This document shows, in pieces, positions 3,001 to 62,900 of a DNA stretch of 64,000 nt. A program made the position numbers and the translations under genes. The stretch lies in assembly GCF_000003815.2 (NCBI RefSeq), contig NC_049981.1, positions 7,800,297 to 7,864,296 on the forward strand, in the 5' to 3' direction. The notes below the pieces were generated by a model. That model did not search any database. It saw only the letters and a program-made list of their open reading frames with translations, and was not told the origin of the DNA. The stretch comes from Branchiostoma floridae. Its lineage: Eukaryota; Chordata; Leptocardii; Amphioxiformes; Branchiostomatidae. Positions within the stretch are counted from its first letter, which is position 1. Each line of letters starts with the position of its first letter.

Positions 3001-3255
3001 TTTTTGAAACACCGCCTGTCACGCCAATGGGTAGAGAGGTGACTTGAAAACGCGATTGTAGCTTAGGCTTCAAGTTCCGGCCTGGCAAACTTGGTATGGA
3101 TGTAAAGTTCGCTTAGCAAGGAATCGAAAGGTGCAAACCGCAAAATATTCGGATACTTCCTTCTCGAGGTATTCTTGAGTATACGGGCTCTGTTTAGGCG
3201 CAACCGCTAGCTCCTTATTTGAAACACCGCCTGTGATGGCACCGGGTAGAGGGTG
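1..3255. repeat. Satellite array, about 215-bp units
   Basis: About fifteen head-to-tail units of roughly 214-219 bp, marked by recurring GGCACCGGGTAG, CCCGGCAAACTTGGTATGG and TTCTCGAGATATTCTTGAGT. Unit starts were read at 1, 215, 430 and 644. Two end variants alternate, one with CCCCTTCTTCTAAACACC and one with CCTCCTTTTTTGAAACACC, and some units carry an extra CTTGC. The unit at 1 is nearly identical to the one about 858 bp later, but the next units do not keep that register, so there is no clean higher-order repeat. Short open frames across units are by-products of the repetition. Confidence 0.95.
1329..1452. other. Assembly gap (N run) inside the satellite
   Basis: 124 N bases; the flanks on both sides are satellite. 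Confidence 1.
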
Positions 3256-3473
3256 TAATGGTTTATTGAGCAAAAACATATCGCTACATTCGCAGCCTGA
3301 CGGCTGAATTGCAGTTGCAATATCACATTAAAACAAACGCATTTGATTAATGTCCAACAAGGCAAATCATTAAGATAAAAGTACGTGTAAAATCAGTTAG
3401 GTACGAATATAATACATGATATCGACCAGCGAATATCTAGAACGAAAATTAGAGGCATACAATATTGGCAGGA

Positions 3474-5096
3474 TTAAGGCATGGGGGCATTACAGTTGAG
3501 TAGACGGACCATGTGCGGAATGGCACTAGACCTATAGCGTTCAGTTCTGCACTTGGGAATGTCCAGTTTGTTGGCAGAGCGGGTTTGTCGGCAACTAATG
3601 TTCTGTCTTGTGGATGGTAGGAAGTGGCGATATTGATCAGAGACTAAGAGTGATTGAGCAAACCGAAGTGTCAGATTCGAACGCCTGGAGTGGAGTGATG
3701 GAAGGCCAAGCTGTGTACACGCATCTCGGTAGCTGGTGTAGTCGCGTCCCATGATGATACGTACCGCTCTGCGCTGGATACGTTCGATCTTGTTGCTCAG
3801 CTGTGTGGTTAACCCTGGGTGCCAGACAGGGGCTGAGTACTCAGTAACTGGGCGAATGTAGGAAGTGTAGACAGTCACGAGGTCTTCCTTCGAAGTGTTG
3901 AAATGCTTCAGTCTGCGCAGAAAGAACAGACGTTGGCTTGCCTTACTGTATGTGTGGTCGACGTGCGCGTTCCATCTGAGGTCAGACTGTAGGTAGAGAC
4001 CGAGTATTCTCATGACTCTTACTTCCACTAGAGAAATGTCGTTGATCTTGAGCGGGGGAGGAGGGCGTGGAGTCATGCTGAATTGGACATGGAGAACCAT
4101 ACATTTACCCGGATGGAGAACCATCTGGCTCTCCTGGGACCATGTGGTCAAGTCAGTAAGGTCCTGTTGGATGCTCGGAGGTTGTGATGACGAGTTTCTA
4201 GTTTCCAACAAGTTCAAGTCATCTACAAACTTCCATCTCTTGGATAGGGCTTGGCGTGCTGCACTGTTTATATAAACAATGAATATGATGGGGCCAAGAA
4301 TCGTTCCTTGCGGTAGGCCACAGGTTACAGAAACAGATTCAGAAAGGGCTCCGTGGTAACGGACCATCTGTTGTCTGTTCGTGAGGAAGTCCGAGATCCA
4401 TTTGACTAGAGATGGCCGTAATCCCAACTCAATCAGTCGGCGAATAGCTAAGGTGTGACTCACACGGTCGAAGGCTTTACTGTAATCCGTGGACACCAGG
4501 GAGCTCAGGGTACCAGGTCTGTCGGAGGCCTTGAATAAGTCGTTTGTAAGGTCTAACAGACAATGGGTGGTGGATCGACCCTTCAGGCAGCCGAATTGCT
4601 GGGGGTCGATTTCAGATTTAATGTCCGACAATACCCATTGACTGATGAAGCTTTCAGCAACTTTGCCTAACAAAGAGGTCAGTGAGATGGGTCGTAGTTC
4701 TTTGACCGAGGGAGGTTTCGTCTTAGGCACTGGGACCACAACGGCGCATTTCCACTCCTCTGGCACGGTACCCTGTTGGAGGGAGGCGTTCAGGATATCT
4801 GCAAGAGGCGTGCTCAATTCACATGCAAATTCTTTGACAAGTTTACCCGGTATCCCATCCGGCCCTGCGGCTTTTCTGGTTTTCACTTTCAAAAGTTTGT
4901 TGTAAACCTCCCATGGTTCTACCGATGGTGCTGGGAGTGACGGTAGGTAGGACGGCAGGAGTGATGGGTCTAATGGTGGTAGGGACTGGATCACTGAGGC
5001 AAGAGATGTGTTGATCTCATTGGCTATACCACGTTTGTTGGTCGGATCTATGTCTTCAATGTGGATGACTGGTTCGGTACGGGTCATGTTTGCCAT
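3474..5096 (-). CDS. CR1-like LINE reverse transcriptase, partial ORF2
   Basis: A 540-residue open frame holding the fingers, palm and thumb of a non-LTR reverse transcriptase. Visible blocks are GPDGIPGKL, LRPISLTSLLGKVAE, the motif A region DYSKAFDRVSH, GLPQGTILGP (motif B) and FVDDLNLLE (motif C) near residue 290, where most CR1 proteins have YADD or FADD. The C-terminal thumb SYIRPVTEYSAPVWHPGL is also present. The apurinic-type endonuclease expected upstream is absent. A frame change and stop separate it from the linker at 5118-5366, so the copy is probably dead, although this part has no internal stop. Confidence 0.85.
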   Translation of the reverse strand: MANMTRTEPVIHIEDIDPTNKRGIANEINTSLASVIQSLPPLDPSLLPSYLPSLPAPSVEPWEVYNKLLKVKTRKAAGPDGIPGKLVKEFACELSTPLADILNASLQQGTVPEEWKCAVVVPVPKTKPPSVKELRPISLTSLLGKVAESFISQWVLSDIKSEIDPQQFGCLKGRSTTHCLLDLTNDLFKASDRPGTLSSLVSTDYSKAFDRVSHTLAIRRLIELGLRPSLVKWISDFLTNRQQMVRYHGALSESVSVTCGLPQGTILGPIIFIVYINSAARQALSKRWKFVDDLNLLETRNSSSQPPSIQQDLTDLTTWSQESQMVLHPGKCMVLHVQFSMTPRPPPPLKINDISLVEVRVMRILGLYLQSDLRWNAHVDHTYSKASQRLFFLRRLKHFNTSKEDLVTVYTSYIRPVTEYSAPVWHPGLTTQLSNKIERIQRRAVRIIMGRDYTSYRDACTQLGLPSLHSRRSNLTLRFAQSLLVSDQYRHFLPSTRQNISCRQTRSANKLDIPKCRTERYRSSAIPHMVRLLNCNAPMP

Positions 5097-5117
5097 GTGT
5101 TTTACTTCTTTGTGCCA

Positions 5118-22184: not shown

Positions 22185-23495
22185 TTAGTTTTGTGTTCCA
22201 GAACTTGCAGTATATAAAGAGTTGACTATTGGTGGTATCATTTGACTCGGATTTCTCGGTAGCGGTATCCCTACATTTGGGTTAACGTTGTATGCTGTGT
22301 TTTGTATGGGTGGTATTATTTGGCCAAAGCTTGTATCCATCTGACTCAGACCTTGTTGTGTACCATGGTTTCGGACTGGAAAGGGGGTGTTGTTCTGTAC
22401 ATTAACAGTTGGTCTGATGTGATGCATCATGATGTTGTTTGGGGCAGGAACTGCATCTCTATCTGAACGGTTAGCTCTGAGCGCCACGATACTCTTCACT
22501 GTTATAACAACGATGAAAATAAATCCAAAAAAACTAGCGACGGAGATGATAGCGATTTGTAAGATACTAAGCCTTAATGTACTGTCCGATTGTGGAATTT
22601 TTGTCGATTTCGTTGTAGACATGTCGTTCTGTCCTTGCAGAGCTTCCAAAGAGACAGGAGCCGAGTGTGAAAATGTGGCTAGTTGGGTCACCCATGCATT
22701 TCTATTAACTGTGTCATGTACAGACAGTGTTCCTATTCCTTGATCCACCACAGGACCAGTAGTAAGAGACCGATTCGTTGATACCTTAGTCTTAAAAGCT
22801 GGAGTCTTATCGGGTCGTTTTGTCAAACAGGATGTCAGGCTTACATCGGCGCTTGCTAAGGGCACGCCTTCCATGTGCTTTGGGCTCGCACACACCAGAG
22901 TATCTAGCCCAGACGGAATATAGCCAAAAACGCACGCCTCACACTCCCGACAGCAAGCTGCAAACATCCCCGTGCATATTTTCAAACAGCGTATCTTCTT
23001 GATTAACCACAGCAAGCCACAACCACAGTCTAAAGGATTATCGCTGATGCGCAAGGTATCTAAGGAGGATAGCGCCAAGTCTTTTTCCGAGACGGTTGCA
23101 AGCCTGTTACCAGTGAGATCCACCAAACTCAGGTTTGGAAGATTTTCAATGACGACGCCCAAATTCACGTGTGTTAGTCTGTTCCCAGACAGGTATAAAT
23201 ACTCCAAGGCAGGCAGAGAGCGGAGTTCCTGCCACTCAATCGATTCGATGTTGTTGTTTGTCAAGCTGAGGGAAACGAGTTTTTGCAGTGGTGGAAAATA
23301 TGTAAGACGCCTCAGATTGCTGTAGGAGATATGGAGGTGGGTTGTATGTGCAGGCAGTCCCTTGGGCAAGTTAGTAAATGGACTTGCGAAGCAATTGATC
23401 GAAGATGTGCGTGGACTATGACACCCAGCTGGAAGAGCGTAGCCCCTCGTGCAGAAAAATAGCCAACAAAAAACGATTTGCATGAAAGCTTTCAT
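22185..23495 (-). CDS. Leucine-rich-repeat type I membrane protein, intronless
   Basis: A 436-residue protein. The start chosen is the ATG at 23495, not an upstream in-frame one, because it opens directly with a signal peptide (MKAFMQIVFCWLFFC). After it come a cysteine-containing LRR N-cap, about five LRRs (such as LVSLSLTNNNIESI and LEYLYLSGNRLTHV), and a C-terminal cap beginning NPLDCGCGLLWLIKK with further cysteines. A Ser/Thr-rich stem follows, then one membrane span near residues 307-336 and a cytoplasmic tail of about 100 residues with no TIR or kinase domain. It is probably a cell-surface recognition or adhesion protein. The architecture is common in deuterostome LRR families and no one-to-one orthologue can be named. 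The gene has no introns in this window, and a TATA-like box lies upstream. Confidence 0.85.
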   Translation of the reverse strand: MKAFMQIVFCWLFFCTRGYALPAGCHSPRTSSINCFASPFTNLPKGLPAHTTHLHISYSNLRRLTYFPPLQKLVSLSLTNNNIESIEWQELRSLPALEYLYLSGNRLTHVNLGVVIENLPNLSLVDLTGNRLATVSEKDLALSSLDTLRISDNPLDCGCGLLWLIKKIRCLKICTGMFAACCRECEACVFGYIPSGLDTLVCASPKHMEGVPLASADVSLTSCLTKRPDKTPAFKTKVSTNRSLTTGPVVDQGIGTLSVHDTVNRNAWVTQLATFSHSAPVSLEALQGQNDMSTTKSTKIPQSDSTLRLSILQIAIISVASFFGFIFIVVITVKSIVALRANRSDRDAVPAPNNIMMHHIRPTVNVQNNTPFPVRNHGTQQGLSQMDTSFGQIIPPIQNTAYNVNPNVGIPLPRNPSQMIPPIVNSLYTASSGTQN

Positions 23496-23602
23496 TTTTG
23501 CATGGAAACGGTAACCAACTTTGACAATCTGGGGTGACAAGTTCTGCGGTTTGGGTTGTCGAGTTAGAATTTCAGGGATCCAATGAGTAGAGGGCAACGA
23601 TG

Positions 23603-23609
23603 CTATATA
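23603..23609 (-). promoter_or_regulatory. TATA-like box for the LRR gene
   Basis: TATATAG on the minus strand, about 110 bases upstream of the chosen start codon at 23495. The spacing allows transcription to begin about 30 bases downstream with a short leader. Confidence 0.4.
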
Positions 23610-24339
23610 ATATCATGCCCCTTTGGAAAGACAAGTCAACTATTTTCTCACTATACTCAGTAGAAAATGAGTACCTGGCTTTGGGTAGGGACGTCCTCCC
23701 GTATTGGATGTAAAGCCGAAGGTCTGGATTGAAGGAAGCCACAACAAAAGATCGGTTTTTAGACGCGTTGTCTTTTCTGATGATCTTGCCGCCTCCTTCT
23801 GATAAAAACGTACAGTTTTCTTGAATTCAATCTTCACATAAAAGCTTTGAATAACTGAACCTAACAGAATGCCCGTCTACGTGTTTTCCTGGTTGCCACA
23901 GAAGATAGAGGGAATGATATGACTATTTTGTGGACGCAAATGTGCACGTGTTTTGAAATATTAATTTTTCAATGGCCTCGATATTTTCTGGGGTATCCCT
24001 GTACTGTTCAGACATTACGAAAAAGACAGAATCGAATGGAAAGAAAGTTGTAACAACCACGTATGATCTTTTATACAGCATTTTATGTGAGTATATTATT
24101 ACAATTTTCAAGATAGTAAAATATCAGTAATTGCAAGTTCGATACGAGAACGATTCCTACGCTACGACATGCAAAAAGAATATTTACTGCGTACTGCTTA
24201 TTCAAATTAACATTCAATTTACTGAATATAACGTTAGATAGGTAACGCCGTGATCTTAAGCTCTTTTCCCAAATGAGAAAAAAACACAATACTTGAAGAA
24301 ATACTTGCGCGGATACGTGACAATGTAAAGCATAACAAA
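23610..24339. other. No gene seen upstream of the LRR gene
   Basis: Only short frames without recognisable content. Confidence 0.4.
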
Positions 24340-26710: not shown

Positions 26711-27208
26711 TCATGGGGCAGAGAACTCAGTGTTAGGTCTCCTGCACAATATTTCAGGACTGTTATTTTCAAAGCCCTGGTCTATCACCATGACACAGAA
26801 GGTTATCATGCCTGTATACTGGCTACAGGCGATCTTCACGTGGTTTATGATGTGAGCCTTACATAAAGCCTCATCCTTACAGTGTATGTCCATGTGATAC
26901 ACCCTGCCGCGGGGAGTCATGTAACTTCCGCCGAAGCTAAGACTCTTGGCGGCCGGTTCGGTCGGGTCGACAAGGATGTAGTAGCCAGGTGTTACAAACT
27001 TGTTCATGTTGGACTCAGAAAGTTTGTACGGATCCCAGTCGACAAACACGCGGCCTTCAGACAACACGGCGGCCGAGAAGGCTAGAGGCAGCAGGCGGTG
27101 GAGGTCGGGAGGCTGGTAGGGGGTGAGCGGTGGGAGGTGGGTCGTGTTGTGTGATGTAAGACTACTACGCAGGGCAGACACGTCAGACTGGAAGTAGAGA
27201 ACATGCTG
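26711..27208 (-). CDS. Unrecognised protein, terminal exon
   Basis: This minus-strand exon begins after the acceptor CTATTCTTTTCAG (exon base 27208) and runs about 165 codons to a stop at 26711. I do not recognise the family. Visible features are HVLYFQSDVSALRSS at the start, a Pro-rich stretch, FVDWDPYKLSESNMNKF, PGYYILVDPTEPAAKS and RVYHMDIHCKDEALCKAHI. Four cysteines lie in the C-terminal half, and no membrane span is evident. The exon follows the one at 30438-30692 in phase 0. The intron between them was enlarged by a LINE with a SINE inside it. Conservation of the unbroken frame and clean splice sites support a real gene; upstream exons were not found. Confidence 0.6.
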   Translation of the reverse strand, partial: QHVLYFQSDVSALRSSLTSHNTTHLPPLTPYQPPDLHRLLPLAFSAAVLSEGRVFVDWDPYKLSESNMNKFVTPGYYILVDPTEPAAKSLSFGGSYMTPRGRVYHMDIHCKDEALCKAHIINHVKIACSQYTGMITFCVMVIDQGFENNSPEILCRRPNTEFSAP

Positions 27209-27246
27209 AAAAGAATAGCACATAATTAGTGACATGATCAACACTC

Positions 27247-28326
27247 TTGTTGCTTGTCCTAATGGCAAGTATGCGCTCTATCAGGTGCGATGTCAAGTCA
27301 TCTCGACCAAAAGGTATGCCTGGCATCTTGCTTACTAACGCACGGTCCCTACTTCACAAACTTGATGAGTTCTGCTTGACTCTGTCCCTGAATAAGATCG
27401 ACATAGCGGCAGTTACTGAGTCCTGGTTCTCAGCTGACCTACCGGAAGAGGTCACGTCGGTCGACGGTTACAACCTTTATCGCAAGGATCGACGTAACAG
27501 GAGAGGCGGAGGAATCGCCCTTTATATCAGAAATGATATAAAGGCAAAACATGTCGACATCGCCGTACCTGAGAACTTGGAGTGCATCTGGACACAACTG
27601 CAACCGCAACGGACCCCCCGTGCTGTTCCTGTACTGTACATGGGAGTTCTGTACCATCCTCCTTGGGCAAACGAAAAACTCTTGCAAGATGAGACAATCC
27701 AACACCTCATCCACACTTTAGACACAATCACAAGAAAACACCCTCTTGCCGGCATCATTCTATGCGGAGATTTCAATAATCTCCCCATCCAACCGTTGTT
27801 ATCCAGTCACCCAGAGCTCAAACAGGTTGTGACCGGTGCCACTCGCTCTAACTCAACGTTGGACCTCAACATTACTAACGTTCACCACCAGTATCACGTA
27901 CCTTACATTACAGCTCCACTCGGTTCCAGTGACCACAATTGCATCCTGTGGAAGCCAAAAGTCTCTAACCAACACAGCGGTCTGCTACCCAGGGTCAAGC
28001 ACCGCCTCGTCACACAGGACAGAAAAGAAGCACTTGGTTTATGTATGTGCATCACCGATTGGTCCGCCGTCTATAACACTGTATCAGTAGAAGACAAAGT
28101 GGCCACGTTCAACAGAATCCTACAGACCATGCTCGACGTTTGTGTTCCCCTGAGAACTAGCAAATCGCGAAATGTGGACAAGTACTGGATGACAGACAAG
28201 ATCATGGCCGCTATCAAGAAAAGACAGTCAGCCTACAAGAAGCACGGCAAAACAGAGAAGTGGAAAAAACTTCGTAACTGTCTGGGTCCAGACACTCATC
28301 AGAAAGCAGAAGAGCAGCCACTATAA
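27247..28326 (+). pseudogene. CR1 LINE endonuclease fragment
   Basis: A 359-codon frame containing an apurinic-type endonuclease: ILLTNARSLLHKLDE, ESWFSADLPEEV, RRGGGIALYIRNDI, the catalytic CGDFNNLP near residue 174 and GSSDHNCILW near residue 227. A linker follows and ends at a stop after QKAEEQPL; the protein resumes in another frame at 28340. Catalytic residues of the endonuclease look intact, but the element as a whole is broken. Confidence 0.85.
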
Positions 28327-28339
28327 CAGATGTATCGGT

Positions 28340-29933
28340 ATGTTAAAGAAGGAGAATCCACGAGAATGGTGGAACTTTGTCAATAATGAACTTGGACGCA
28401 CACAGAAATCAAAGGGGAAAGTCACCGTCTCTGATGTCCCAGACGATCGAGTTGCGGACGCACTAAACGACTTCTTTGCGGAAGCGTGGTCGGACAGTAG
28501 AGCCTACAGTCTCTTCCCACTCCAGCTCCCCTCCAACTCCGATGACCTCTGCAGCACTGGCCAAGTTAAAGCCATCTTAAGGAGTCTGAACACAAGGAAA
28601 TCAGGTGGACCTGACGGTATTCCAAACCTAGCTCCAGTCGTGGTTCTCCTGTCGATTGGACAGATGAGGAGGCAGACAGGCTTCTTGCCTGTTTGCCTGA
28701 CCTGCACGTGACTTTTTATGGTGAAGGAGGGGTGAGCAATTCCTTCTCCACCCTCTCGTCTCCTGGAGCACTACGTCTCACAGGGGCAGAACTGTCTGCA
28801 ACGTGTGAGGCGGCTCCAATAGATGCAGCTTTGTTGTTCGGAGTATCCGTCTCCTAGGAGGACTTCCGACCAAGGATGTAAGGAGTTCCTCCTACCCCTG
28901 ACTTCTGTGCCATGGCGGGAGCCGCTCATGCCCGGACATGCCCCTAAAGCCTGTCTCGGCCACAAAGCCCCACCAAGGCCACAAAAGGTCACTAGCCGCA
29001 GCTAGATACTCATTTACACCTGAGTTAAGTGAGGAAAGTCGTGTAAAATGCCTTTCCCAAAGGCACACGATCGGTGACACGGCAGTTGGATTTGAACCCG
29101 CAACCTCTCGGTCACGAGCCGCAAATGCTGCCACTGCGCCACGCGGTCCCACAGTCGTGACTCACTTGATAAACTCCTCTTACAACTCCGGATACATGCC
29201 TTCCGTGTGGAAAATGGCGAATGTTTGCCCCATACCAAAAACGTCTGTTCCTGCAAGCAAGAAGGATTGGCGGCCTATCTCCCTTATCTCGACCCTTGGA
29301 AAGGTACAAGAAAGGCTTGTGCTGAACAGATTTCTACCGATTATTAAGCCTTGGATACGGGATCAGTATGCCTACATGCCAAAAGCTTCGACCACTGTCG
29401 CTCTTCTGAAAGTGCACCAGTCCTGGTTGCAAAGTTTAGACACCAAGAAGACATCAATGGTCCGTGTGCTCCTGGCTGATATGTCAAAGGCTTTTGACAG
29501 AGTCGACCACGGAATACTGCTACAACATCTAGATGCCCGTGGTACGCTCCCTAGGATGCTTGCTTGGATCTCCAGCTATCTATCCGGCAGGACCCAACGC
29601 GTGGTCGCCAACAATCAGTACAGCAGTTGGCGCGTTGTCACCTCTGGGGTTCCTCAAGGTGGGGTGCTATCCCCTTACCTGTTTCTTGTGTACATGTCTA
29701 CAAGAACCACCAAGTATGAGACCACCGATAACACCGGCTATGCGGATGATATAGGTCTGTCTGTCTGCACTTTATGGTCCCTGACGACAGGGAGGTTGCG
29801 ACAGGACGAACATTGCGTAACTCCAGTCACCGAACACTCAAACGATCATTCTTATACCGAGCCACAGTGCTCCACAACGACTCGTTTTAATCTAATCTTA
29901 CAGTTTGAAATGTTCACAAACTGCAATTTCTAA
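28340..29933 (+). pseudogene. CR1 LINE reverse transcriptase, interrupted by a SINE
   Basis: 28340-28642 carries the linker and SGGPDGIPN. After the SINE, the reverse transcriptase resumes at THLINSSYNSGYMPSVWK (29160) with WRPISLISTLGKVQE, LADMSKAFDRVDHG, SGVPQGGVLSPYLF and GYADDIG. Removing the SINE joins APVV to THLINSS, as in other CR1 proteins. The frame then leaves the LINE protein because of a deletion. Confidence 0.85.
28643..29151 (-). mobile_element. tRNA-derived SINE, minus orientation, 8-bp target duplication
   Basis: Flanked by CAGTCGTG on both sides (28635-28642 and 29152-29159). Read on the minus strand the head is tRNA-like, with GTGGCGCAGTGG (A-box region) and GGTTGCGGGTTCAAATCC (B box). 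The body follows with GTGCCTTTGGGAAAGGCA, TTTACACGACTTTCCTCACTT and AGGTGTAAATGAGTATCTAGC. A second, older member is at 51775-51990. The element is about 509 bp, and its 3' part (28643-28900) is not shared with the second copy. Confidence 0.85.
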
Positions 29934-33350: not shown

Positions 33351-33670
33351 CCATTCACACCCGCACTCTGGGGACTCCTTTCTGTAACATGAATACAAAC
33401 TAGTCAAACAACAGGCCTGTTCCCAACACCATCCACACCCGCACTCTGGGGACTCCTTTCTGTAACATTAATACAAACTTGTCAAACAACAGGCCTGTTC
33501 CCAACACCATCCACACCCGCACTCTGGTGACTCCATTCTGTAACATTAATACAAACTAGTCAAACAACAGGCCTGTTCCCAACACCATCCACACCCGCAC
33601 TCTGGGGACTCCTTTCTGTAACATTAATACAAACTAGTCAAACAACAGGCCTGTTCCCAACACCATCCAC
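33351..33670 (+). repeat. 78-bp minisatellite
   Basis: About four units of CATCCACACCCGCACTCTGG, GACTCCTTTCTGTAACATTA, CAAACAACAGGCCTGTTCCC. The array starts at the N gap, so its copy number is unknown. Confidence 0.9.
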
Positions 33671-33778
33671 CCTAGACAAAAATGCCTTTACTGCACTGTT
33701 AACTGGATGTAAACAGGCATTAAGACAACATTGTAAAATATACACAACAGAATGAGTGTAACTCGTGTTATTCCTGAC

Positions 33779-33885
33779 CTGATCTTTACTTGGGAAGTAC
33801 CACAGGAAGATACCTGCCAGGGTGCCTCCTGCAATTCCCATCAGGAGCTCTAGGGGGCCTCGAAAGATTGTGAACACAAGGTTAC
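33779..33885 (-). CDS. SLC9B exon e, last one present
   Basis: Acceptor TATCCCTTTCAG, 107 bp, GNLVFTIFRGPLELLMGIAG and IFLWYFPSKDQ, donor GTCAGGAA. Leaves in phase 0. No matching next exon exists at lower coordinates in the window. Confidence 0.88.
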
Positions 33886-36800
33886 CTGAAAGGGATAAGA
33901 TCAATCAATACTTTAACCAGTAGGTAGGTAGTTGACGTACAAGGGTTATATCAGTACCGCTTACAAATCATTTAATTTTTTACTTATAATCTTTGCTATT
34001 TCAGATTAGCAATGTTTTTATATTTTGATTTTAATCAATGTAAATTAAGTAAGTAATTTGACACCATATATCTATTACTTTTTTTCTAGCTCGCACAACA
34101 ACTGTTATCATGAACAAAATTTGGATTCTTTACAGTTGCCTGAGTAAATTTTGATAGGTTGGGGGCATTGCACATTTCAAAAACATATTGCAGTAACTAG
34201 GCCTACATGGTCTGGTCATTGGGGAGACAAGATATTTAGACACTTAGACATGTAAGAAATTTACCGTCAGATCCATCTTACCAGCTTAGGCCACACCAAT
34301 TTTATTTGTTGCTTCTCGGACTTTTTTTAGAAAACAATAGGATTGGTCGGTTGGAAAAAAATAAAATTTGGCAAAAATTGGGGGGTAGGAGAAATTGAGG
34401 AGCTTACTCAAGTTACACAACAGAAATAACAGCTTTAACAGAAAATACGGAACACGCTGGTCCGTTGCTAGTCTATTCTTCTCCTTGCTATGCTAATAGG
34501 CCACACCCACAGGCGGGTCTGAAGTGCTGCACGGCATATATACAGAAAGCAGCAGAAGTATTTCCCAAGATTACGATCGATTAGTTTATGATATAAATTA
34601 ACAAAAGCATATACATGATAAATGAAAATGTCAGCCTTGAAACGACGTAAAACTTAAAAAATGCCAGTGTAATACAGTGCTCAAATCCCCGCTTTAACTA
34701 CCCTGGGAAAACGCAGACTCCTAACGAGGCACGCAAAGTTTACCGATCCCTACAACACGCACGCACGGGACACCCGCTGCCTAACACCCGCCGGCCCTTG
34801 AACCAGCTGGCCCCTACTAACACGAGCCTCTGCGAGCGATGTTGGGGACCGGCGTTAGTGGGGCCAGCTGGTAGTGGGGCGGGTGCATAGAGGCGGGAGG
34901 GCGCGCGTTAGGCAGGGGATCGGTAACTCTTATTTGCGACTCTTATTTGCGAAGCTTCTCGAGCAGGTTTCCCAGGGTACGCTTTAACGGGACGTGGCAA
35001 AAGTCACTTTCGGTCGCTGAACTCTGAATCCCACCGACTTTTTTTTCTCATTTACGTTGGAATCAAACATTTATACCCTTATCTAAGCTCAAACTTTCTA
35101 AAATCAATTTCTACTGTGTAGTTTTTTATGTCTGATACATTTAAAATCCTGTTCCTATTTACCGATACTTTTTTCTCCCATAATTCCTGAACGCACCGAT
35201 AGAAAAACAAATACGAAAACCAAGATGGCGGGCGGCTTTTGCTCTTTCAAATGGAGTAGTTTTTCTTTTATTTTATCGGTAGGATCGGAAGATATCGGTC
35301 AAAATATGAAATGTGCACTTTATTCAGAGTTTCCACGCTGAAAAAGAGATGTTTTGAAGCAATAATGAGGCGGTGTTGGCATAGATGACAGAGCCTTATT
35401 AGCGCCCCTTTGTCTTCGCGGGCACTTTCATGCAAATCATCTCTTTGTGCCTGTGCTGGGAGCGGGGTTTTCAACTGTAAATCAAAGTCTCTGAAATTGT
35501 TTGGTGTGTGCATTCAGTACTTTTGCCCTGTAAGTTACAAGCAAGGACTTTTGGTCAGAGCTACTTGTTTTAAGCTAGTTTTGGACGAACCACGTTTTTT
35601 TTTCACTATCGTTCCGTAATTTGATTTGATTGTGTATTAAACACAACTATATTCTGGGCATCGGTTACATGAATCAGACTTAAGTTTTCATCCTCCTAAG
35701 TTGTGTGTGTGTTTTGTGTATGCTTGTGTATTTTTCCTTCTTTATTCTGTTTTTGGGTCGAGTTTTCGTGACCGCTTGGGAAATCAAACATGGCGCCCGC
35801 CGGTTCATCTCAGGTCAATGGGATAGTCTACTGTATTGTGGTGGGAAATGTTGCGTGCGGTTTCGGATTGTTTTCTTTATTAAACTAAACAGAACGTTAG
35901 TTAATTCATTTCAGGACTTTTTTTTTCAAAATGACCAGAACACATTTCAAAGAATATGTGACTCAATTAGATAATTGGTCTCAAAGTAAATGGTGCCTGT
36001 GTTTTTTTAATGTACAACTCACCCATGCTGCTACATATGATGTTACCCAAGCGGGATGATTGTTGTCAAGAACTGACGGCGTCGGTTATTCGTAACAATT
36101 TACAAAGCACCTTTTTGAAAAGGTCTAAAATGCCAGTTCAGGATTACAAATAAACTTTAAGGTCGGTCTACAACCTGGGCAATGATTGGAGAGAAAAACA
36201 TACAAACTGGGACTGGCCATGGACAGTTTAATAAATGGTGTCTTCTATTTGAGCACAGTGGCGCTCGGTGCAACCAATCCGTTCCAACTGTTGCGCTATC
36301 TTGTTCTATTTTATCGGAAGGAACTTTCAAACCGTATCCTGTCAATAATTTGTCGCTGAAAAGTGGCTTGGTAAAGCTGTTTATATTACAAATACGTTCA
36401 GTTTGGAATATTTTACTATTACTAGCGCCATATTGAATCTTTTGCCGTCAAAAACCAGCACTAGTAAATCGTCCAACTTCACCAGCGGCGAGCTGACTTT
36501 TTTTTTTTTTTTGATGATGGAATATCTTTGGGTATTTTGACCATAAGATGGACAAAACTATACTGAAAATCCTGTTGGTTTTGAGTCAGGCAACGAATTG
36601 GTATTGTTAAAACGTGCTAATGTAATAACAATTGAAACCAGCGGCAGGTAACGCATATGAATAGCGACGTTGACACAGGGGAGATATCGTAACATAAACA
36701 TTACTACGGCCCGCCTTTTAAATTTTCAACCAATCACGGACAGTTTCCAATGGAGACAACAGTGATTGGCAACTAATTATCATCAATATTCATGTCCCAC

Positions 36801-39800
36801 AAGTGGGGATTTTTCATGCCCTTTTGGACCATCGTGGAAATACACACAGGAAAACCTAAATTTTCAATATTTGGGGGGTCCCTGGTAACAAAGTCCAAAG
36901 TTTTAAGAAAAATCATGATAAACATACCATCCTAAATAGGCACGTACAGCTAGTGGAATGCCCATAGTTTATTTGAGAGAGGAGAGGCAGTGAAATTTTG
37001 TCAATGTGAGGTGTGGCCATTTTATTTTATTTTTTTCAAATCGGGAAAAAAAATAAGGTCAGGGAATCCGAGAAGCAACAAATTAAATTAGTGTGGCCTT
37101 ATGTTTAAAGAGTTGCAAGTAGAACTGGTCAATTTACCGGTGGTGAATGTGATGCCAAGACACACTGCGAATCCCGTGATAGCCAGGACGTCATCTACGC
37201 TACCAGAGGCAATGACTAGTGTGGGGATGCCCTGGTCTACCCCTAACCCCAGCTCCTGTAGCCATAACATGGAGGGGACCACCACTGCTGGGGACACTGC
37301 AGCCAGCACAAACCTGCATACAACAGTCAAGATGATATGACTTGTTTTATCAACTTCGCTCACTCAGTGGTTTTGTTCGGTGGTTATAGCAAAGGACAAG
37401 GCATTATGACATCATATACACCTAAGGACAGGTCATTAATACTTAATAATTATTACAGAAATCCAGCTGCCTTTTGTCCATAGTGCTTAGTAAGCAAGAT
37501 AGAGTAGAGTAGGATATTATAGATACAGTAGTACAGACTAGAAGGCACTTCAGTGTTGTATATGCCATGTTTTTTTCCTGCATGAACATTCCCCTGTTGG
37601 GTGACCGCCCTATGTTCCAAAATCCCTATGCCCTGGTTCTGAAATCCCTATGTTCCAAAATCCCTATGTTCCGAAATCCCTAAGTTCTGAAATCCCTAAG
37701 TTCTGAAATCCTATATATGTCCCGAAATCCCTATGTTCCAAAACCTCACATATGTTCCAGAATCCCATATAATATATGTTCCAAAATCCCTATGTTCCAA
37801 AATCCTATATATGTTCCAAAATCCCTGTGTTCCAAAATCCCATATATTTCCAAAATCCCTATATTCCAAAATCCCTATATTCCAAAATCCCATATATGTT
37901 CCAAAATCCCATGTACCAACACACTAGTGTACAAACTGGCGTTGTAGCAACCGTTGAGAGTTGACCAAAGCTACATCAGGCAGGGCTCAAGGCTGCCGAC
38001 ACGCTGGATTTCGGAACATTATATTGAGGCCTTGAACCCCCCAGTAGCCGTACCCCAGCATAAAGCCCCAGAGCCAGGGGAAGTCCAGCAGGAAATGAGT
38101 GACTACGGCCAGAGTGGAGGCCTCCACCACACACGGCAGGAAGGCCAGCAGCAGCACTGTCCAGCTCAGCCTCCGTAGCTGGACTGGGTCCAGACCCAAA
38201 CCTGCAACACACAATCAGTAACCTTTACTTAGATATCATACCTGCAACACACAATCATTAAACCTTTACGGTTATAATAAAGGGATTGTTTATTTGTGTT
38301 TTGATCAAAGAAGTTGCTGACCCGACCACACACGGACCCACCAGGGTCAGCTTAATTAGCTACAGGCAGGCGGGACAATCCGGGGCTCATTCCCGGACCG
38401 CCCTTCAAAGCGTGCGGACGCGAAACCTCTTCTCTCTCCAGCGCGATGGCCGAGTTCGATTTTGCAGAATGGTCACAGGCAGCGAAGCTGACCCCAGCTA
38501 CGGTCAAGGCCTTGGCCAAGGCCGAACTTGCTGAGAAAGAAGCCCTTCTGTGTGTTACTACCGACATGCTGCAAATACTGGATCTCTCTGTTGGCCAGTA
38601 CGCCCTGCTATGCAGGGCAACCACTAAACTGCAAGCGGCGGCCGGGGCAGCGAAGCCCGCCAAGACCAAGGCGACAGTCACCCTGGATGACCTGAAAGCA
38701 GACAAGGAGCTGTCCGACCTCCTGTCCCAGGTGGAAGGAATCGACGGTCTCCTGACGGACGGCGCAGCGGCAGCTCAGCAGACCGGTGACGACCAGGCGT
38801 CTTTTTACCTGCACAACAGCGCCCCAAAGCAAGGTGAGAAACCCCTACTTATACCGGAGTTCGTGGACTCCTTCACCCAGCCCGAGAACGACCACGAGAT
38901 TGCACGCGACGGTCAGACGTCCATCATACTACGGACCAGCCGCTCCCGCCCAAAGCTGGAGTCGATCAAAATCCCCGCGTGGTCGGCTGCCAATGCTAAG
39001 ATCATGGCCGCGCTTATCCGCGCCGGAAAAATCTCCAACAAGCAGGACATCGAGGACTACCTCGCATATACGGTGAAAGTGTCAGAGTTGTTCGAGGTGT
39101 ACGACGTACCGTCTGTCATGTTGTACGACAACCAGTACAGAATCCTACAGAACCGTAACGGTTTTCGCTGGGGAAGGGATTCCGAGCACCTACACTCCCG
39201 CTTTCTGCGGATCCGGATGGTGCCCACGTCGAGGCCCCAGCAGCGCAAGACCACAACATCCCGCGCGAAGACTTCAGACGGCCAGGAGATCTGCCTGAAC
39301 TTTCAGAACCCCGGAGGATGCAGGCGACCGGCAGGCACATGTCAATATGCCCACGTGTGCATTACACCGGGTTGCGGCGAGTCACACCCACAGTGCGAAC
39401 ACGCCAGGAAGACCACTAAATAGCAACTCATGGACAGTCCATTAAACCTGGCAACATGGGAAACAGAACTGCGAAACGACAAGGACCAAGATTTCCTCTT
39501 AGACGGACTATCAAATGGCTTCAAAATTCTACCGGCAACCAGCGACATTACCCAAGTAGAGTGCGACAACTACAAATCTGCTACAGACCCAGCTCATCGC
39601 GGTAAAGTGGAAGCGCAACTTAAGGAAGAGATGCGGAAAGGGAATTATGAACTGAGTCGAACAAAACCAGCCATAGTCAGTGCTCTCGGCGCCATCCCGA
39701 AAAAGGGTTCTGACGATATAAGACTGATCCATGACTGCAGCAGACCTGAAGGCTTCGCCCTGAACGACTACGCCGAGGCGGAGCGCTTCAGCTACCAGAC

Positions 39801-42490
39801 ACTAGACGACGCAGTAAAAATGCTACAACAAGGTTCCTACATGGCCAAAATAGACTTAAAGAGCGCCTACAGATCAGTGCCTATTCACCCATCTAATCAC
39901 AGCGCGACGGGACTCAAGTGGCGGTTCAACGGTGACAGTGAGTACTCTTATCTGTTCGATAAACGTCTACCTTTTGGCGCTAGGCTTAGCCCGTCCATAT
40001 TTGATAGACTATCACAAGCCGTCAAACGTATGATGCAACGTCGCGGTTTTCACACGATCGTGCCCTCACTTAGAGTAGTACGACTTGTTAATTTAATAGA
40101 TAGCGCAGGCCTTTGTTCCAAATTCCTTAAGTCACGACTCCTAGCTAACTCCATGTACTCTTTCTTTCATTCATCTTCTGACTGGGGGTTTGGAGAAAAT
40201 TCATCTGTCATTTTTATTGTTTACCATTAAAAAATGATTATACCCCCAGTCACGCGTCTCTCTCGTATGTATAGATTAAAGGTTATAATAAAGGGATTGT
40301 TTATTTGTGTTTTGATCAAAGAAGTTGCTGACCCGACCACACACGGACCCACCAGGGTCAGCTTAATTAGCTACAGGCAGGCGGGACAATCCGGGGCTCA
40401 TTCCCGGACCGCCCTTCAAAGCGTGCGGACGCGAAACCCCGCCCACCCTCAACCGTAACAAGAACTCTGTAAACAAGAACTCTGTAAACAACCACCGTAA
40501 ACAAACTATCACTGTATGTATATACTGTATAACTACCAATTTATGTAACTACTTCTCCTGTGGAGAAAATTCATCTGTCATTTTTATTGTTTACCATTAA
40601 AAAATGATTATACCCCCAGTCACGCGTCTCTCTCGTATGTATAGATTAAATTAGATATCATACCTGCAACACACAATCAGTAACCTTTACTTAGATATCA
40701 TGCCTGCAACACACAATCATTAAACCTTTACTTAGATATCATACCTGCAACACACAATCAGTAACCTTTACTTAGATATCATACCTGCAACACACAATCA
40801 TTAAACCTTTACTTAGATATCATACCTGCAACACACAATCAGTAACCTTTACTTAGATATCATACCTGCAACACACAATCAGTAACCTTTACTTAGATAT
40901 CATACCTGCAACACACAATCAGTAACCTTTACTTAGATATCATACCTGCAACACACAATCAGTAACCTTTACTTAGATATCATACCTGCAACACACAATC
41001 AGTAACCTTTACTTAGATATCATACCTGCAACACACAATCATTAAACCTTTACTTAGATATCATACCTGAAACACACAATCAGTAACCTTTACTTAGATA
41101 TCATACCTGCAACACACAATCATTAAACCTTTACTTAGATATCATACCTGCAACACACAATCAGTAACCTTTACTTAGATATCATACCTGCAACACACAA
41201 TCAGTAACCTTTACTTAGATATCATACCTGCAACACACAATCATTAAACCTTTACTTAGATATCATACCTGCAACACACAATCAGTAACCTTTACTTAGA
41301 TATCATACCTGCAACACACAATCAGTAACCTTTACTTAGATAGCAAATAGGAGGATTCATTGGATGATTACCTTTGCCAAGAAAGTTACGTTTTCAGTAG
41401 CGTGTGTGTGTATGACCAGCATAACTCAAGAATGCCTGGATGGTCGCGTTGCACTTGCCATAAACGACACTTTTTTAGGTGGCTTCTGTTCTTTAAGTTC
41501 ACAAAATCAGTACAAGGTTGACCCAATTGCAAGTACATGTACGTAGTTGACACTCACAGAGATCAGAGCAGGTTTGATAGTCTGCCTGGGTGTCTTCAGG
41601 AGGAGTCTGTACCTAAGCCTCTAAGCTCACTTAATGCTTCAATAAAACTGAATAATGCTAAAATCAAACCACCATAAGTCATTCTAACATAACCAGTAGT
41701 TGCCATATGGACAATGAAGCACTGACCTGCTCGGATGAGAATGACAGTCAGGGCGACAAGGCGGATAGACGATGCCCAGACCGGATCAATCCAGCTGCCG
41801 ATCATGATGCCAGGAATGTTCCGCAGCAAGATGCCTACAATCAGCATTCCTGATGGAAAACATGTTGGACTTCAGCAGGTGTGTCAATACTCACATGCTG
41901 TAGAACAGGGGGTTCTATTTGCTTGATATGGCGTTTTATGTCATACCTGTTATGCGAAAACGTTCGATACGGGTGTTCCGGACCGGGCCATAACTTCTGT
42001 ATCGCACAGGTTCAAAAGGCGTATCACACAGGCTTAATCTTTGAGTAAATCAAACCATTTCGAACGGGCCGAGTGTAACACGGTTGGCAATTCGATTACC
42101 TGATTCGGACGTTGGAACATTGCTGTTGCAACTTTTTGTTCGAGGGCAACGAATTTGTTCAACTTCTGGCGCATTTCGCATCAAAACATGGGTTTTCTCA
42201 GGTGGGTATGACATGAATAAAATACAGCATGGCATATTCCGCATCACCCCCAGTCCCAACCCTCCCACGGGTCGGATCACCCTCCGGCTACGGGACCGGT
42301 CCATTGTACTGCCTGGTCCCAAATCCTTCCTTACATCTCCCTACCTACTGTTGACATTACTGATGACCATGTCCTGTATGTTGAGGAGAGTTGTACTGAC
42401 CCAGGAGTGGAGGTAGTTTGATGTACTGTATGAGCCGGCCTCCAATCACACACAGCACCAGCAACACAGTCAGGGCAAACAGGTTTCCAC
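33779..42490 (-). CDS. SLC9B-family Na+/H+ antiporter (NHA), internal exons only
   Basis: Five minus-strand exons join in phase: 42490-42401, 41849-41727, 38201-38054, 37313-37138 and 33885-33779, about 215 residues. The product is a polytopic cation/proton antiporter of the CPA2/NHA group (vertebrate SLC9B1/SLC9B2 relatives), which exchanges Na+ or Li+ for H+ across plasma or organelle membranes. Diagnostic text: LPPLLGMLIVGILLRNIPG, RLVALTVILIRAGLGLDP, AAVSPAVVVPSM and ASGSVDDVLAITGF. The last contains the paired aspartates expected for ion translocation. Exons for the N-terminus lie upstream of the window's recognisable part or in gaps. The C-terminal third, which follows FPSKDQ in the family, is missing. 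Introns carry a minisatellite, a retroelement and simple repeats. Confidence 0.88.
33890..34687. other. SLC9B intron, nothing further seen
   Basis: AT-rich intronic sequence without a supported feature. Confidence 0.5.
34688..34991. mobile_element. GC-rich foldback element
   Basis: CCCGCTTTAACTACCCTGGG at the left is mirrored by CCCAGGGTACGCTTTAACGGG at the right. Inside, TTACCGATCCC, CTGCCTAAC and CCAGCTGGCCCC are also mirrored, so nearly all of the 304 bp can fold on itself. No coding capacity. Confidence 0.75.
34992..37137. other. SLC9B intron, no supported gene
   Basis: A YY1-like AAGATGGCGGGCGGC lies at 35223. A 32-codon frame with good start context (AAACATGGCG) lies at 35790-35888. 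Neither is enough to call a gene. Confidence 0.4.
37138..37313 (-). CDS. SLC9B exon d, with the DD pair
   Basis: Acceptor CTGTTGTATGCAG, 176 bp, FVLAAVSPAVVVPSMLWLQ, GIPTLVIASGSVDDVLAITG, then CLGITFTTG. Donor GTAAATTG. The adjacent aspartates correspond to the essential acidic pair of NhaA/NHA transporters. Confidence 0.9.
37600..37925 (+). repeat. Minisatellite of CCAAAATCCCTATGTT-type units
   Basis: About twenty units of 16-26 bp, mixing TTCCAAAATCCCTATG, TTCTGAAATCCCTAAG and AATCCCATATATGTT. Lies in the SLC9B intron between exons d and c. Confidence 0.9.
38054..38201 (-). CDS. SLC9B exon c
   Basis: Acceptor GATTGTGTGTTGCAG, 148 bp, LGLDPVQLRRLSWTVLLLAF, then FLPCVVEASTLAV and FPWLWGFMLG. 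Donor GTACGG. Phase 1 in, phase 2 out. The acceptor is copied many times in the minisatellite just upstream. Confidence 0.88.
38205..38269. repeat. Splice-acceptor minisatellite, left part
   Basis: Two units next to exon c, then interrupted by the retroelement at CCTTTAC. The unit on the minus strand is an acceptor-like tract TGATTGTGTGTTGCAG followed by GTATGATATC. Confidence 0.9.
38270..38427 (+). repeat. Split direct repeat A1
   Basis: Begins GGTTATAATAAAGGGATTG and ends GCGGACGCGAAACC; matches A2 at 40281-40438 in length (158 bp) and sequence as far as I can read. Confidence 0.92.
38446..39423 (+). CDS. Retroelement ORF1 (gag-like) with a CCCH zinc-finger-like end
   Basis: 325 residues, starting 18 bases after repeat A1. 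The N-terminal half is acidic and helical-looking (LAKAELAEKEALL). The middle has IPAWSAANAKIMAALIRAG. The end has a Cys/His cluster CLNFQNPGGCRRPAG, then CQYAH and CITPGCGESH, spaced C-x8-C-x6-C-x3-H like a CCCH nucleic-acid-binding finger. It probably packages element RNA. It ends with TAG at 39421, only six bases before the ORF2 start and in the same frame. Confidence 0.8.
   Translation: MAEFDFAEWSQAAKLTPATVKALAKAELAEKEALLCVTTDMLQILDLSVGQYALLCRATTKLQAAAGAAKPAKTKATVTLDDLKADKELSDLLSQVEGIDGLLTDGAAAAQQTGDDQASFYLHNSAPKQGEKPLLIPEFVDSFTQPENDHEIARDGQTSIILRTSRSRPKLESIKIPAWSAANAKIMAALIRAGKISNKQDIEDYLAYTVKVSELFEVYDVPSVMLYDNQYRILQNRNGFRWGRDSEHLHSRFLRIRMVPTSRPQQRKTTTSRAKTSDGQEICLNFQNPGGCRRPAGTCQYAHVCITPGCGESHPQCEHARKTTK
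39430..40230 (+). pseudogene. Retroelement ORF2, truncated DIRS-type reverse transcriptase
   Basis: A 266-codon frame. Residues 1-212 match the front of a DIRS-group reverse transcriptase: SALGAIPKKGSDDIRLIHDC, FSYQTLDDAVKML, MAKIDLKSAYRSVPIHP (motif A aspartate) and LPFGARLSPSIFDRLSQAV (motif B). The protein text stops near 40064, and the last 55 codons are derived from the 3' non-coding end. Motif C, RNase H and tyrosine recombinase are missing, so the copy depends on helpers. Confidence 0.85.
40191..40280 (+). repeat. Split direct repeat B1
   Basis: TGGAGAAAATTCATCTGTCA through TATGTATAGATTAAA; repeated at 40561-40650. Confidence 0.92.
40281..40438 (+). repeat. Split direct repeat A2
   Basis: Second copy of A1, starting immediately after B1. 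Confidence 0.92.
40561..40650 (+). repeat. Split direct repeat B2, right end of the element
   Basis: Second copy of B1; the minisatellite resumes at 40651. Confidence 0.92.
40651..41345. repeat. Splice-acceptor minisatellite, right part
   Basis: About seventeen units of 40 or 41 bp: TTAGATATCATACCTGCAAC, then ACACAATCAGTAACCTTTAC or the variant ACACAATCATTAAACCTTTAC. Each unit, on the minus strand, repeats the last bases of the intron before exon c (TGATTGTGTGTTGCAG). Confidence 0.95.
41346..41726. other. SLC9B intron, nothing further seen
   Basis: No supported feature. Confidence 0.5.
41727..41849 (-). CDS. SLC9B exon b
   Basis: Acceptor GTTTTCCATCAG, 123 bp, GMLIVGILLRNIPG through ALTVILIRAG, donor GTCAGTGC. 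The RAG at its end continues in exon c as LGLDP. Phase 1 in and out. Confidence 0.88.
42401..42490 (-). CDS. SLC9B exon a
   Basis: Acceptor TATGTTTCAG, then GGNLFALTVLLVLCVIGGRL, a membrane segment, and IKLPPLLG. Donor GTCAGTAC. Enters in phase 1 and leaves in phase 1. Confidence 0.85.
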
Positions 42491-59900: not shown

Positions 59901-62900
59901 TTTGTTCAATCCCTCCATAAGGGATTACATGTTCCATTTGAAGCTAACATGGCACTGCCCAACTCTGGTCAGGTGAGGCCTCGTCTCCAGATGTTTCTGA
60001 TAATGAACGAGCTTCCTCAGCCTTAGGGATGAGCATGTCGGGGGGTGGGTCCCCAACAACCCCACCCAGTGGAAGGCTGGCCAGGATGGGAAAGGCTGTT
60101 GCAATGGCGGAAAAAGCAAGGTCTGGTTACGGAAAACGACAGACATTTTCCCCTGAAAGACCAAACACATCAGTAGGCACAAGTCGACACATCGGCGCTG
60201 CAGGCAGGGCAGTAGTCTTTGCGGAGGGGACAAAATTGAGAGATGGAAAGATAAGTCCCAAAAGTCCCTCGCCACAAGGTGGTAGGAAGATCAGCATGGC
60301 TACTGCCCGGAAGGCCGCCATGTTTGGTCAAAGGCCGTCCTCAAGGAATGGGATGAGTGAATCTGAAACAGAGGCGTCGGACCAAGCACTCCCAAGTATC
60401 AACACCGGGAGAAGGGTGATGGCTTTTGTTGGATCAGCAAAACAGAGGCGGCAGGACAGAAGCCCCAGTCCAGGAGAAAGAAGCCAGAGTCCAAAGACAA
60501 GGGGTATCCAGTCAGCTGGAAGGGCGATGATGCTAGCCGGTAAGGGAAGACCTGGATCAGCACAAGAGAAAGAGGCAGTCACAGAATCAGCTCCAGGGCA
60601 GAGAAGCCCAAGTCCAAAATCTAAGGGTATACAGTCAGCTAGAAGGGCGATGATCGGGAGAAGGGTGATGGCTTTTGTTGGATCAGCAAAACAGAGGCGG
60701 CAGGACAGAAGCCCCAGTCCAGGAGAAAGAAGCCAGAGTCCAAAGACAAGGGGTATCCAGTCAGCTGGAAGGGCGATGATGCTAGCCGGTAAGGGAAGAC
60801 CTGGATCAGCACAAGAGAAAGAGGCAGTCACAGAATCAGCTCCAGGGCAGAGAAGCCCAAGTCCAAAATCTAAGGGTATACAGTCAGCTAGAAGGGCGAT
60901 GATATTAGCTAGCAAGGGAAGACCAGAATCAGCACAAGAGAAAGAGGCAGTCACAGAATCAGCTCCAAGGCAGAGAAGCCCAAGTCCAAAATCTAAGGGT
61001 ATACAGTCAGCTAGAAGGGCAATGATGTTAGCTGGCAAGGGAAGACCTGGATCAGCACAAGAGAAAGAGGCAGTTTCAGAGATAAGTTCAGCAGAAGAAG
61101 AACTGACTAATAAACAAAAAATTAAGCTAGCTCAGAAAGCAATGGCATTTTCTCCTAAATCTGGCAAAACTGAACAGAAAGAAGCTAAAGAAACACCCCG
61201 TCCGCGGTCTCCTTGGCTGAATAAAGTTCAAGGTAGCAAAACAGAAGGAAAGGTTGCAGCAGCATTCTCTAAAAGACCAGGTAAAGCAGAAAAAGAAGTA
61301 GAAGATTCAGCTGAGATGTCTCAAGATACAGATAAGGAAAATAGTGGGAAGAAAAGTCCTGTTGGGTCAATAAAAAAGATGTCACTGATGGGGAAAATGA
61401 AAATGGTCCAGAAAGAAAACAATGAACCTGAAATCAAGCAAACTGATGAAAAGAAATGGGCTCTAAAACAGGGCCTTCTTTCTTCTGCTAAACAAAAGTC
61501 ATTCATGGACAAAATAAAAAGTGCTGCCAAGGAGATGGAGAAAGAATCTGAATCACCTGAAATCAAGCAAAGTGATGAAAAGAAACAGGCTCTGAAACAG
61601 GGCCTTCTTTCTTCTGCTAAACAGAAGTCATTCATGGACAAACTAAAAAGTGCTGCCAAGGAGATGGAGAACGAATCTGAATCACCAGAAAAAGATGAAA
61701 AGGAGGATGTTGCAGCTGAAAAGGAGGAAGAAAACAAAGGGAAAACTGGTCTTGCTTCATCTATGAAAAAGATGTCCTTGATGGGAAGATTGAAAACAGG
61801 GGAAAAAGAGCAGCAAGTTGCCAAGCCATCAGACAAAAAGGAAGCAGACTCTGACAAGGAAAACAAAGGAAAAACTACCCTCTCTTCATCCACAAAGAAG
61901 ATGTCGTTTATGGCAAAAATGAAGGGAGGCGGAGCAAAAGAGCAACTACAGGAATCTGAGCCTGCTGACAAAGAGGAGAAAAACACTACCGAAGAAGGAG
62001 GGGAAGAGAAAAAAAATCTTACAACAGCGGCTAAGAAACTGTCCCTGATGAAGAAGTTGAAGGGTGGAGAAAAGGAAAGTGAAGACTCAGAGCAACCAGG
62101 TACCTCCTGAGCACCTGAACTGTGATCAGCACCTAACACCGACTTTTTCTTTGCACTAACTTGTTGCAATTCCTTCACCTCAATGGCTTTTTTTCTTTCA
62201 AGAGCCATAGGTGGATTTTCTGAGTAAAGATTACGATTTTTGCCACGTCACGTTTTGTGTGTATGGTTTTGCTAAAAGCACTCAGGCACACGATCCTGTG
62301 AATTAGTAGGCCAGTTTGGACCTGTCCTCAGTTGTAGCCATGTTAATTAGATCATATGGGTGACATCCTCTGGGAAGCCACAAAAACAAAGTTAACTTCA
62401 TTATACATCATTAGAGGTAAGGAAGGTTGAACAAACACAAAGACTGTGGTATCCCAAACAAAAGATTTTTCATTTTTTTATGTTATATCTTCTTCTTTGA
62501 CTTTGAAGTTGACTTTGATATTCTACAACATTAGTATCCATATCCTAATATCTAAAGCATGTTTTTGCTTATTTTGCAGCTGCTTTGTACGATTTACACA
62601 CTTACTTTATCTTGAAAATGGTTTGAATTGCATAAGGATGACATCCTCGGGGAACCTCAAAACTGAATGGAAACAAAAAAAGTTGCCTTCAATAGGAAAT
62701 ATTAAAAGTTCCCAGAACTAATCCATGTAATCAAATCAACATGGCTTATGATGAAATAGCAATCTATAAAGCACCCTCCAACTCCAGAGAAGATAGCTTA
62801 TCCCTTCAGCACTGGATCTGGTATAAGCTTGTTCAATGGCACAGTGTTTTGCACACATTGGTGTTGTCCCTAGTGCTGAATTAAGGACTATTGTGCAAAT

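Follow-up and report, generated by a model that had tools for sequence, protein, structure and literature searches.

Does the enzyme-depleted retroelement at positions 38270-40650 of a 64-kb window of amphioxus DNA (the whole stretch analysed) belong to a deleted but mobile family, as its preliminary description proposed, or is it a single defective copy? The element spans 2,381 bp on the plus strand and has a split-direct-repeat layout (Table 1). Alignment bore out the claim that both repeat pairs are identical, with B1 abutting A2, and the described order of A1, ORF1, half a reverse transcriptase (RT), B1, A2 and B2 stood, except that a 122-bp spacer separates A2 from B2. The base before A1 is C and the base after B2 is T, both unlike the internal B1/A2 joint, so the ends of the element are unambiguous. 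A1 contains TATAAT at 38273 and AATAAA at 38276, a possible promoter and a possible poly(A) signal, respectively.

ORF1 is uninterrupted, as had been stated. It has no match in Pfam; its C terminus carries, on a by-eye reading, a CX8CX6CX3H cysteine/histidine cluster, and a fold predicted with no alignment was discarded (pLDDT 37.8). The second ORF matches Pfam RVT_1 (E = 7.7e-9) over profile positions 55-144 of 205 only, and aligns weakly to MMLV-type RT chains (E about 0.05). Its RT breaks off directly before the point where a longer relative, L010, has YLDD, which we take to be the catalytic motif. Comparison with the 4.3-kb relatives L009 and L010 made the missing parts visible and upheld the proposed loss of the recombinase, RNase H and catalytic half of the RT: relative to L010, the absent sequence runs from just before YLDD to the last codons of the recombinase, with TG on both sides. 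The deletion junction exists but had been misplaced near 40064. Judged by its coding content, which includes neither the catalytic RT part nor RNase H nor recombinase, the window copy should be unable to supply any of these enzymes. A DNA search found no second copy or other piece of the element in the 64-kb window, and an Rfam scan of the window gave 0 matches at gathering thresholds.

Table 1. The element, its host site and other features of the 64-kb window
Feature	Position	Strand	Observation
Target-side TTTAC, left junction	38265..38269	+	Motif common to the family's left flanks
A1 repeat	38270..38427	+	Identical to A2 at 158/158 positions
ORF1, Gag-like, 325 aa	38446..39423	+	Open, ATG 38446 to stop 39423
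Truncated RT ORF	39424..40230	+	RT homology to 40062, then 3' sequence read in another frame
Internal deletion junction	40061..40062	+	2-bp overlap TG; 1,950 bp absent relative to L010
Recombinase gene's last codons (out of frame) and 3' untranslated region	40063..40190	+	From comparison with L009/L010
B1 repeat	40191..40280	+	3' end is GATTAAA
A2 repeat	40281..40438	+	Directly abuts B1
A2-B2 spacer, 122 bp	40439..40560	+	Includes a 15-bp unit repeated 2.3 times (40457-40491)
B2 repeat	40561..40650	+	Identical to B1 at 90/90 positions
Host 40/41-bp array	40651..41342	-	Units with acceptor/donor-like TTGCAG/GTATGA
SLC9B2-like exon	41599-41871	-	PDB 7b4l residues 147-190, E = 1.1e-6
SLC9B2-like exon beside array	38014-38199	-	PDB 7b4l residues 190-242, E = 7.5e-11
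SLC9B2-like exon	37091-37363	-	PDB 7b4l residues 236-300, E = 6.6e-21
SLC9B2-like exon	33641-33904	-	PDB 7b4l residues 296-335, E = 3.6e-7
Tandem repeat	1-3253		214-bp unit repeated about 15 times, at the left edge of the window
LINE-type fragment	3474-5117	-	Reverse transcriptase
Single 475-aa frame	22185-23612	-	Leucine-rich repeats; hydrophobic stretch by eye
Frame	26711-27277	-	Matches histidine N-acetyltransferase C-terminal domain (Pfam Hisat_C, E = 1.3e-30)
LINE-type fragment	27238-29933	+	Reverse transcriptase and endonuclease
tRNA-Thr (cgt), by ARAGORN	29076-29148	-	Inside a LINE fragment; may be a tRNA-like artefact
LINE-type frame, 1010 aa	46359-49391	+	Endonuclease and reverse transcriptase domains; apparently uninterrupted
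720-aa frame	59948-62110	+	Internal 123-bp and 129-bp tandem repeats; no Pfam match

The element sits in a minisatellite array, which also spans 38201-38269 and occupies the acceptor side of an intron in a minus-strand gene for an SLC9B2-like sodium/proton exchanger. The left flank ends in CTTTAC and the right flank starts with TTAGATATC; joined across the element they read CTTTACTTAGATATC. The sequence CTTTACTTAGAT is found at 17 places in the uninterrupted array to the right. Excision therefore re-forms the 40-bp host repeat with nothing duplicated or lost, in agreement with the clean rejoining, free of target duplication, that had been claimed. The tandem array is thereby a built-in empty-site control that gives an exact picture of the insertion. 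On the minus strand, TTGCAG/GTATGA has 15 exact copies in the right array, and the final array unit provides the acceptor of the adjoining exon. Amphioxus 'mirage' minisatellites are tandem copies of intron/exon boundaries (excerpt of PMC3087553); the host array similarly repeats splice-boundary-like sequence, and differs in that the mirage arrays there were described for other genes, Adh3 and globin. The array at the SLC9B2-like gene fits a mirage minisatellite.

Relatives were sought in the same assembly, one assembly of 513,431,437 bp in 431 contigs. With 40 of the 51 candidates scored, a whole-element query gave at least 45 matches, among which the window copy alone covers the full query. 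Match surroundings were retrieved as 20 stretches, 10 upstream extensions and 12 short stretches, with five matches on C6 and C17 left out. Two longer relatives, L009 (4,305 bp) and L010 (4,297 bp), run through the part missing from the window copy, and the A and B pairs are identical within each of them and nearly so in L011. L010 thus answers the proposed search for a full-length relative with a tyrosine recombinase: its ORFs for RT/RNase H (1123-2760, 546 aa) and recombinase (2712-3719, 336 aa) overlap, and the RT matches RVT_1 with E = 2e-19 over profile positions 55-205. The Pfam match to RNase H is weak (0.015, below the cutoff), and that to Phage_integrase (E = 7.6e-5) is also below the cutoff, at 23.0 bits versus 27.1; a profile built from four of the genome's recombinases matches Cre (0.001) and XerD (about 0.08) in the PDB. 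Together, the split repeats and the recombinase frame of L010 support the tyrosine-recombinase (Ngaro/PAT-type) identity first suggested for the window element.

The choice between these two types turned on a methyltransferase, which PAT elements carry between RNase H and recombinase. Pfam found none in either the RT/RNase H or the recombinase ORF of L010, and the overlap of the two frames leaves no room for one between them, which makes the family Ngaro-like as judged by structure alone, in groups whose structural marks carry a published warning of homoplasy (excerpt of PMC4157794). That the element is instead of PAT type is unlikely on the same ground; split direct repeats are common to PAT and Ngaro, and the point in favour of PAT is the by-eye cysteine/histidine cluster of ORF1, set beside the zinc finger in Gag that marks Pat1 (excerpt of PMC4157794). 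Ngaro elements of zebrafish, sea urchin, fungi, Xenopus (DIRS-53_XT) and Cafeteria have the same A1-ORFs-B1A2B2 layout and identical repeat pairs, and the amphioxus relatives share their order of Gag, RT-RNase H and recombinase with no methyltransferase found; solo AB copies are known there too (excerpts of PMC8547959, PMC9210276 and PMC4157794). The window copy differs from Ngaro elements by its lost enzymes, which makes it a derivative and not a complete member, and the 4.3-kb amphioxus relatives are shorter than the Cafeteria Ngaro (~6 kb). Xenopus Ngaro elements carry an SGNH hydrolase ORF, and none was noticed in a non-targeted look at the amphioxus relatives.

Enzyme-less split-repeat elements have a precedent in SIRE, a non-autonomous VIPER derivative that equals the A2-B2 part (excerpt of PMC6681497). 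The A-spacer-B form also occurs in two short two-ended relatives, L019 (6189-6554) and L022 (2941-3283), the counterpart of a solo LTR, whereas the window copy retains ORF1 and half an RT and has a junction of its own in single copy. In two further short two-ended copies, L025 (4773-4992) and L050 (671-894), A is followed with hardly any gap by the final 60-75 bases of B. A sister family is represented by L028 (L028 2654-6985), which has 68% DNA identity, three open frames and the same layout, with A and B pairs identical at 172/172 and 104/104 positions and B ending in GATTAAA. Against L028, ORF1 of the window copy has a dN of 0.245 and ORF1 plus the RT part a dN of about 0.25, with dS saturated, a pattern that fits earlier purifying selection in this family. 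RT scans for relatives outside the genome gave 16 pattern matches in genome_contigs and 3 in viral_contigs, none of them confirmed.

The insertion was claimed to be young, and its identical A and B pairs agree with this, as do its 10 differences from L012 over 1,453 aligned bases; it has 12 differences from L010 over 1,420 aligned bases and differs from five relatives by 0.69-1.66% over the first 1.4 kb. Repeat pairs are described as nearly identical at insertion (excerpt of PMC6681497), from which the identical pairs of L009 and L010 and the near-identical pairs of L011 would be expected. The claim of a mobile non-autonomous family did not survive the junction search. A 76-base junction query had eight matches in the one assembly searched (8 of 8 candidates scored), of which three stop at the junction, four begin there and one, the window copy, spans it; by the criterion that the preliminary description had itself set, a junction this singular denotes a single defective copy. 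We consider it very probable that the window element is a recent insertion of a Ngaro-like retrotransposon and a one-off defective copy. It adds a new member, though a dead one, to a type of element already known.

Other accounts of the window copy were weighed against this. Membership of a mobile deleted family, moved in trans by full-length relatives, would suit the two intact ends, the intact ORF1 and the presence of such relatives in the genome, but with no second match spanning the junction and no other among the 45 matches spanning the full query it is very improbable, on searches that, covering one assembly with 40 of 51 whole-element candidates scored, would miss any copy sharing the junction that is polymorphic or absent from the assembly. 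Still more remote is an artefact in which mis-assembly of several copies created the deletion or the repeats: the family is repetitive and the 64-kb window contains 774 N elsewhere, but there is no N at the element, its flanks and repeat ends are exact, and over its first 1.4 kb it is distinct from all five relatives compared. Alternatively, a jump between templates at the TG overlap may have shortened the RNA or cDNA, which the enzymes of a full-length relative then integrated once. The clean ends, identical repeats and short junction overlap speak for such a birth in the deleted state, which we think has a real chance of being correct while leaning slightly against it; a deletion that followed integration would have left an identical structure. 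Under either timing, the one-off defective copy remains the reading we favour.

We then compared the ends of the family's copies. Among 28 placed loci, eight are two-ended (the window copy, L009, L010, L011, L019, L022, L025 and L050), two have the right end only (L015 and L044) and 18 only the left end, which is exact or near-exact (L012, L013, L014, L016, L017, L018, L020, L024, L026, L039, L041, L042, L043, L045, L046, L047, L048 and L049). Outside the placement were L021 (bounded by N), L023, L027, the five C6/C17 matches and the sister element L028. A ratio of 18:2 or worse has p of about 0.0004 under an even split, for loci that are not fully independent, as L041 and L042 share a derivative, and with A (158 bp) easier to detect than B (90 bp); in copies at least 97% identical the ratio of left-only to right-only is 6:1, not significant alone. 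LINEs have the opposite polarity to these one-ended copies with an exact left end. In the sister family, a query with L028 gave at least 49 matches (40 of 425 candidates scored), with too few close copies to serve as an independent test; old fragments start at or near its first base and none but L028 itself reaches the B2 end from inside, a weak pattern given their divergence.

Two sets of truncated copies are related by more than the family sequence. L041 and L042, about 100 kb apart on one contig, each combine the element from A1 up to base 429 with roughly 510 bp of unrelated DNA. Their 3' ends coincide, their surroundings are unrelated on either side, and a flank duplication was found in neither; they may stem from a truncated copy that carried its 3' flank along when it moved (3' transduction). 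L039 and L040, on two contigs, are one truncated copy seen twice: with their flanks included they agree at 99.5% over 1,662 bp, and they represent either a duplicated segment or an assembly duplicate.

The left ends share a host motif. We read 26 left and 10 right ends, counting L039 and its near-identical twin L040 once and placing the altered ends of L041 and L049 by eye. In the left flanks T stands at -5 in 20 of 26, at -4 in 24 and at -3 in 17, and A at -2 in 19. The motif T[TA]A[CT] occupies positions -4 to -1 at 13 of the 26 left ends and, elsewhere in these flanks, 20 of 806 control positions, counts that are descriptive, the motif having been defined after the flanks were seen; the other 13 left ends do not have it in this strict form, and L028 is preceded by the off-motif TTTTG. 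No signal comparable to the left motif was found in the ten right flanks. The B end TTAAA and the host TTTAC share T, T and A at equal distance from the joint, a resemblance expected if the recombinase exchanges strands at a B-A joint. Strand exchange would then span some five partly matching bases, so that the host version ends up to the left of the element and the B version to its right.

From the sequences we infer the following cycle. The RNA would begin near the start of A1 and terminate in A2, as suggested by matches to TATAAT and AATAAA only; the B1-A2 block would restore both outer ends during reverse transcription; and a circle with a B-A joint would form. The recombinase would then pair the terminal TTAAA of B with a host site resembling TTTAC and swap strands there, so that the target TTTAC remains on the left, the TTAAA of B on the right, and nothing is duplicated. 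In the window copy, 1,950 bp were also lost at the 2-bp overlap, either by a jump in reverse transcription or by a later deletion. The two-ended copies fit recombinase integration of such a B-A circle.

Flank repeats set a few of the one-ended copies apart. DIRS-type integration is described as proceeding without target duplication (excerpt of PMC3266345). We applied an exact flank-repeat test, with a break shift of up to 4 bases, to 24 of the 28 loci, namely 16 left-only (L041 and L042 omitted) and eight two-ended copies. Perfect abutting target duplications were found in L012 (390 bp; L012 240-629 and 2232-2621) and L014 (83 bp; L014 562-644 and 2098-2180), whose 3' junctions overlap host sequence by 1 base and 3 bases, respectively. 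In L024 the flank repeat is 13 bp long and lies 4 bases inward of the break, in L016 it is 6 bp, and in the other 12 tested left-only copies 0-4 bases; among two-ended copies the old solo copy L050 has 9 at offset 2 and the other seven have 0-4. Mismatched flank pairs (n = 552) reached a maximum of 6, once, which three of the 16 left-only copies exceed and a fourth equals. No further abutting duplication was found in 10 truncated copies including L027 (8-9 kb upstream, about 5 kb downstream). Non-abutting repeats were also seen: the two-ended L009 has one of 179 bp and 74% identity starting 14 bases off each end, L048 adjoins a short tandem repeat, and L013 and L022 are near repetitive flanks. 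These need not be connected with insertion. A full-text literature search found no truncated, target-duplicating copies of such elements announced in titles or abstract openings.

These copies raise the possibility that the family often integrates one-endedly, with A joined to a TTTAC-like site, a variable far end, and repair that duplicates or deletes target sequence; we regard this as close to evenly balanced, falling just short of probable. The recombinase would join the first base of A to the host site, whereas the far end, at a variable point, would be sealed to host DNA by repair over a short overlap (1 base and 3 bases in the two clearest cases). Where repair or template switching ran backwards, a duplication would result (13, 83 or 390 bases), and where it ran forwards, a deletion. 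Against frequent one-ended integration, 12 of the 16 tested left-only copies show no duplication. Later loss of 3' sequence as the sole cause of the truncated copies was rejected, as it leaves the duplications abutting both ends of L012 and L014 unexplained. The duplications could also have arisen when a filled homologue joined an empty one unequally, or through assembly joins between haplotypes; a haplotype mis-join would be expected to introduce differences, and there are 0 in 473 duplicated bases, and the asymmetry of left and right ends likewise speaks against assembly joins.

The family gives a readable integration signature, a host TTTAC that resembles the end of B. If one-ended integration is true, it would also yield 3'-truncated copies with an exact left end, some with long target duplications. 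Were this real, the order of strand joining and the ability of incomplete copies to integrate, questions difficult to approach until now, would come into view, and a target duplication alone would not exclude a tyrosine-recombinase element. The truncated relatives are thus the part worth following, and the window element is an ordinary, well-preserved casualty of a young family.
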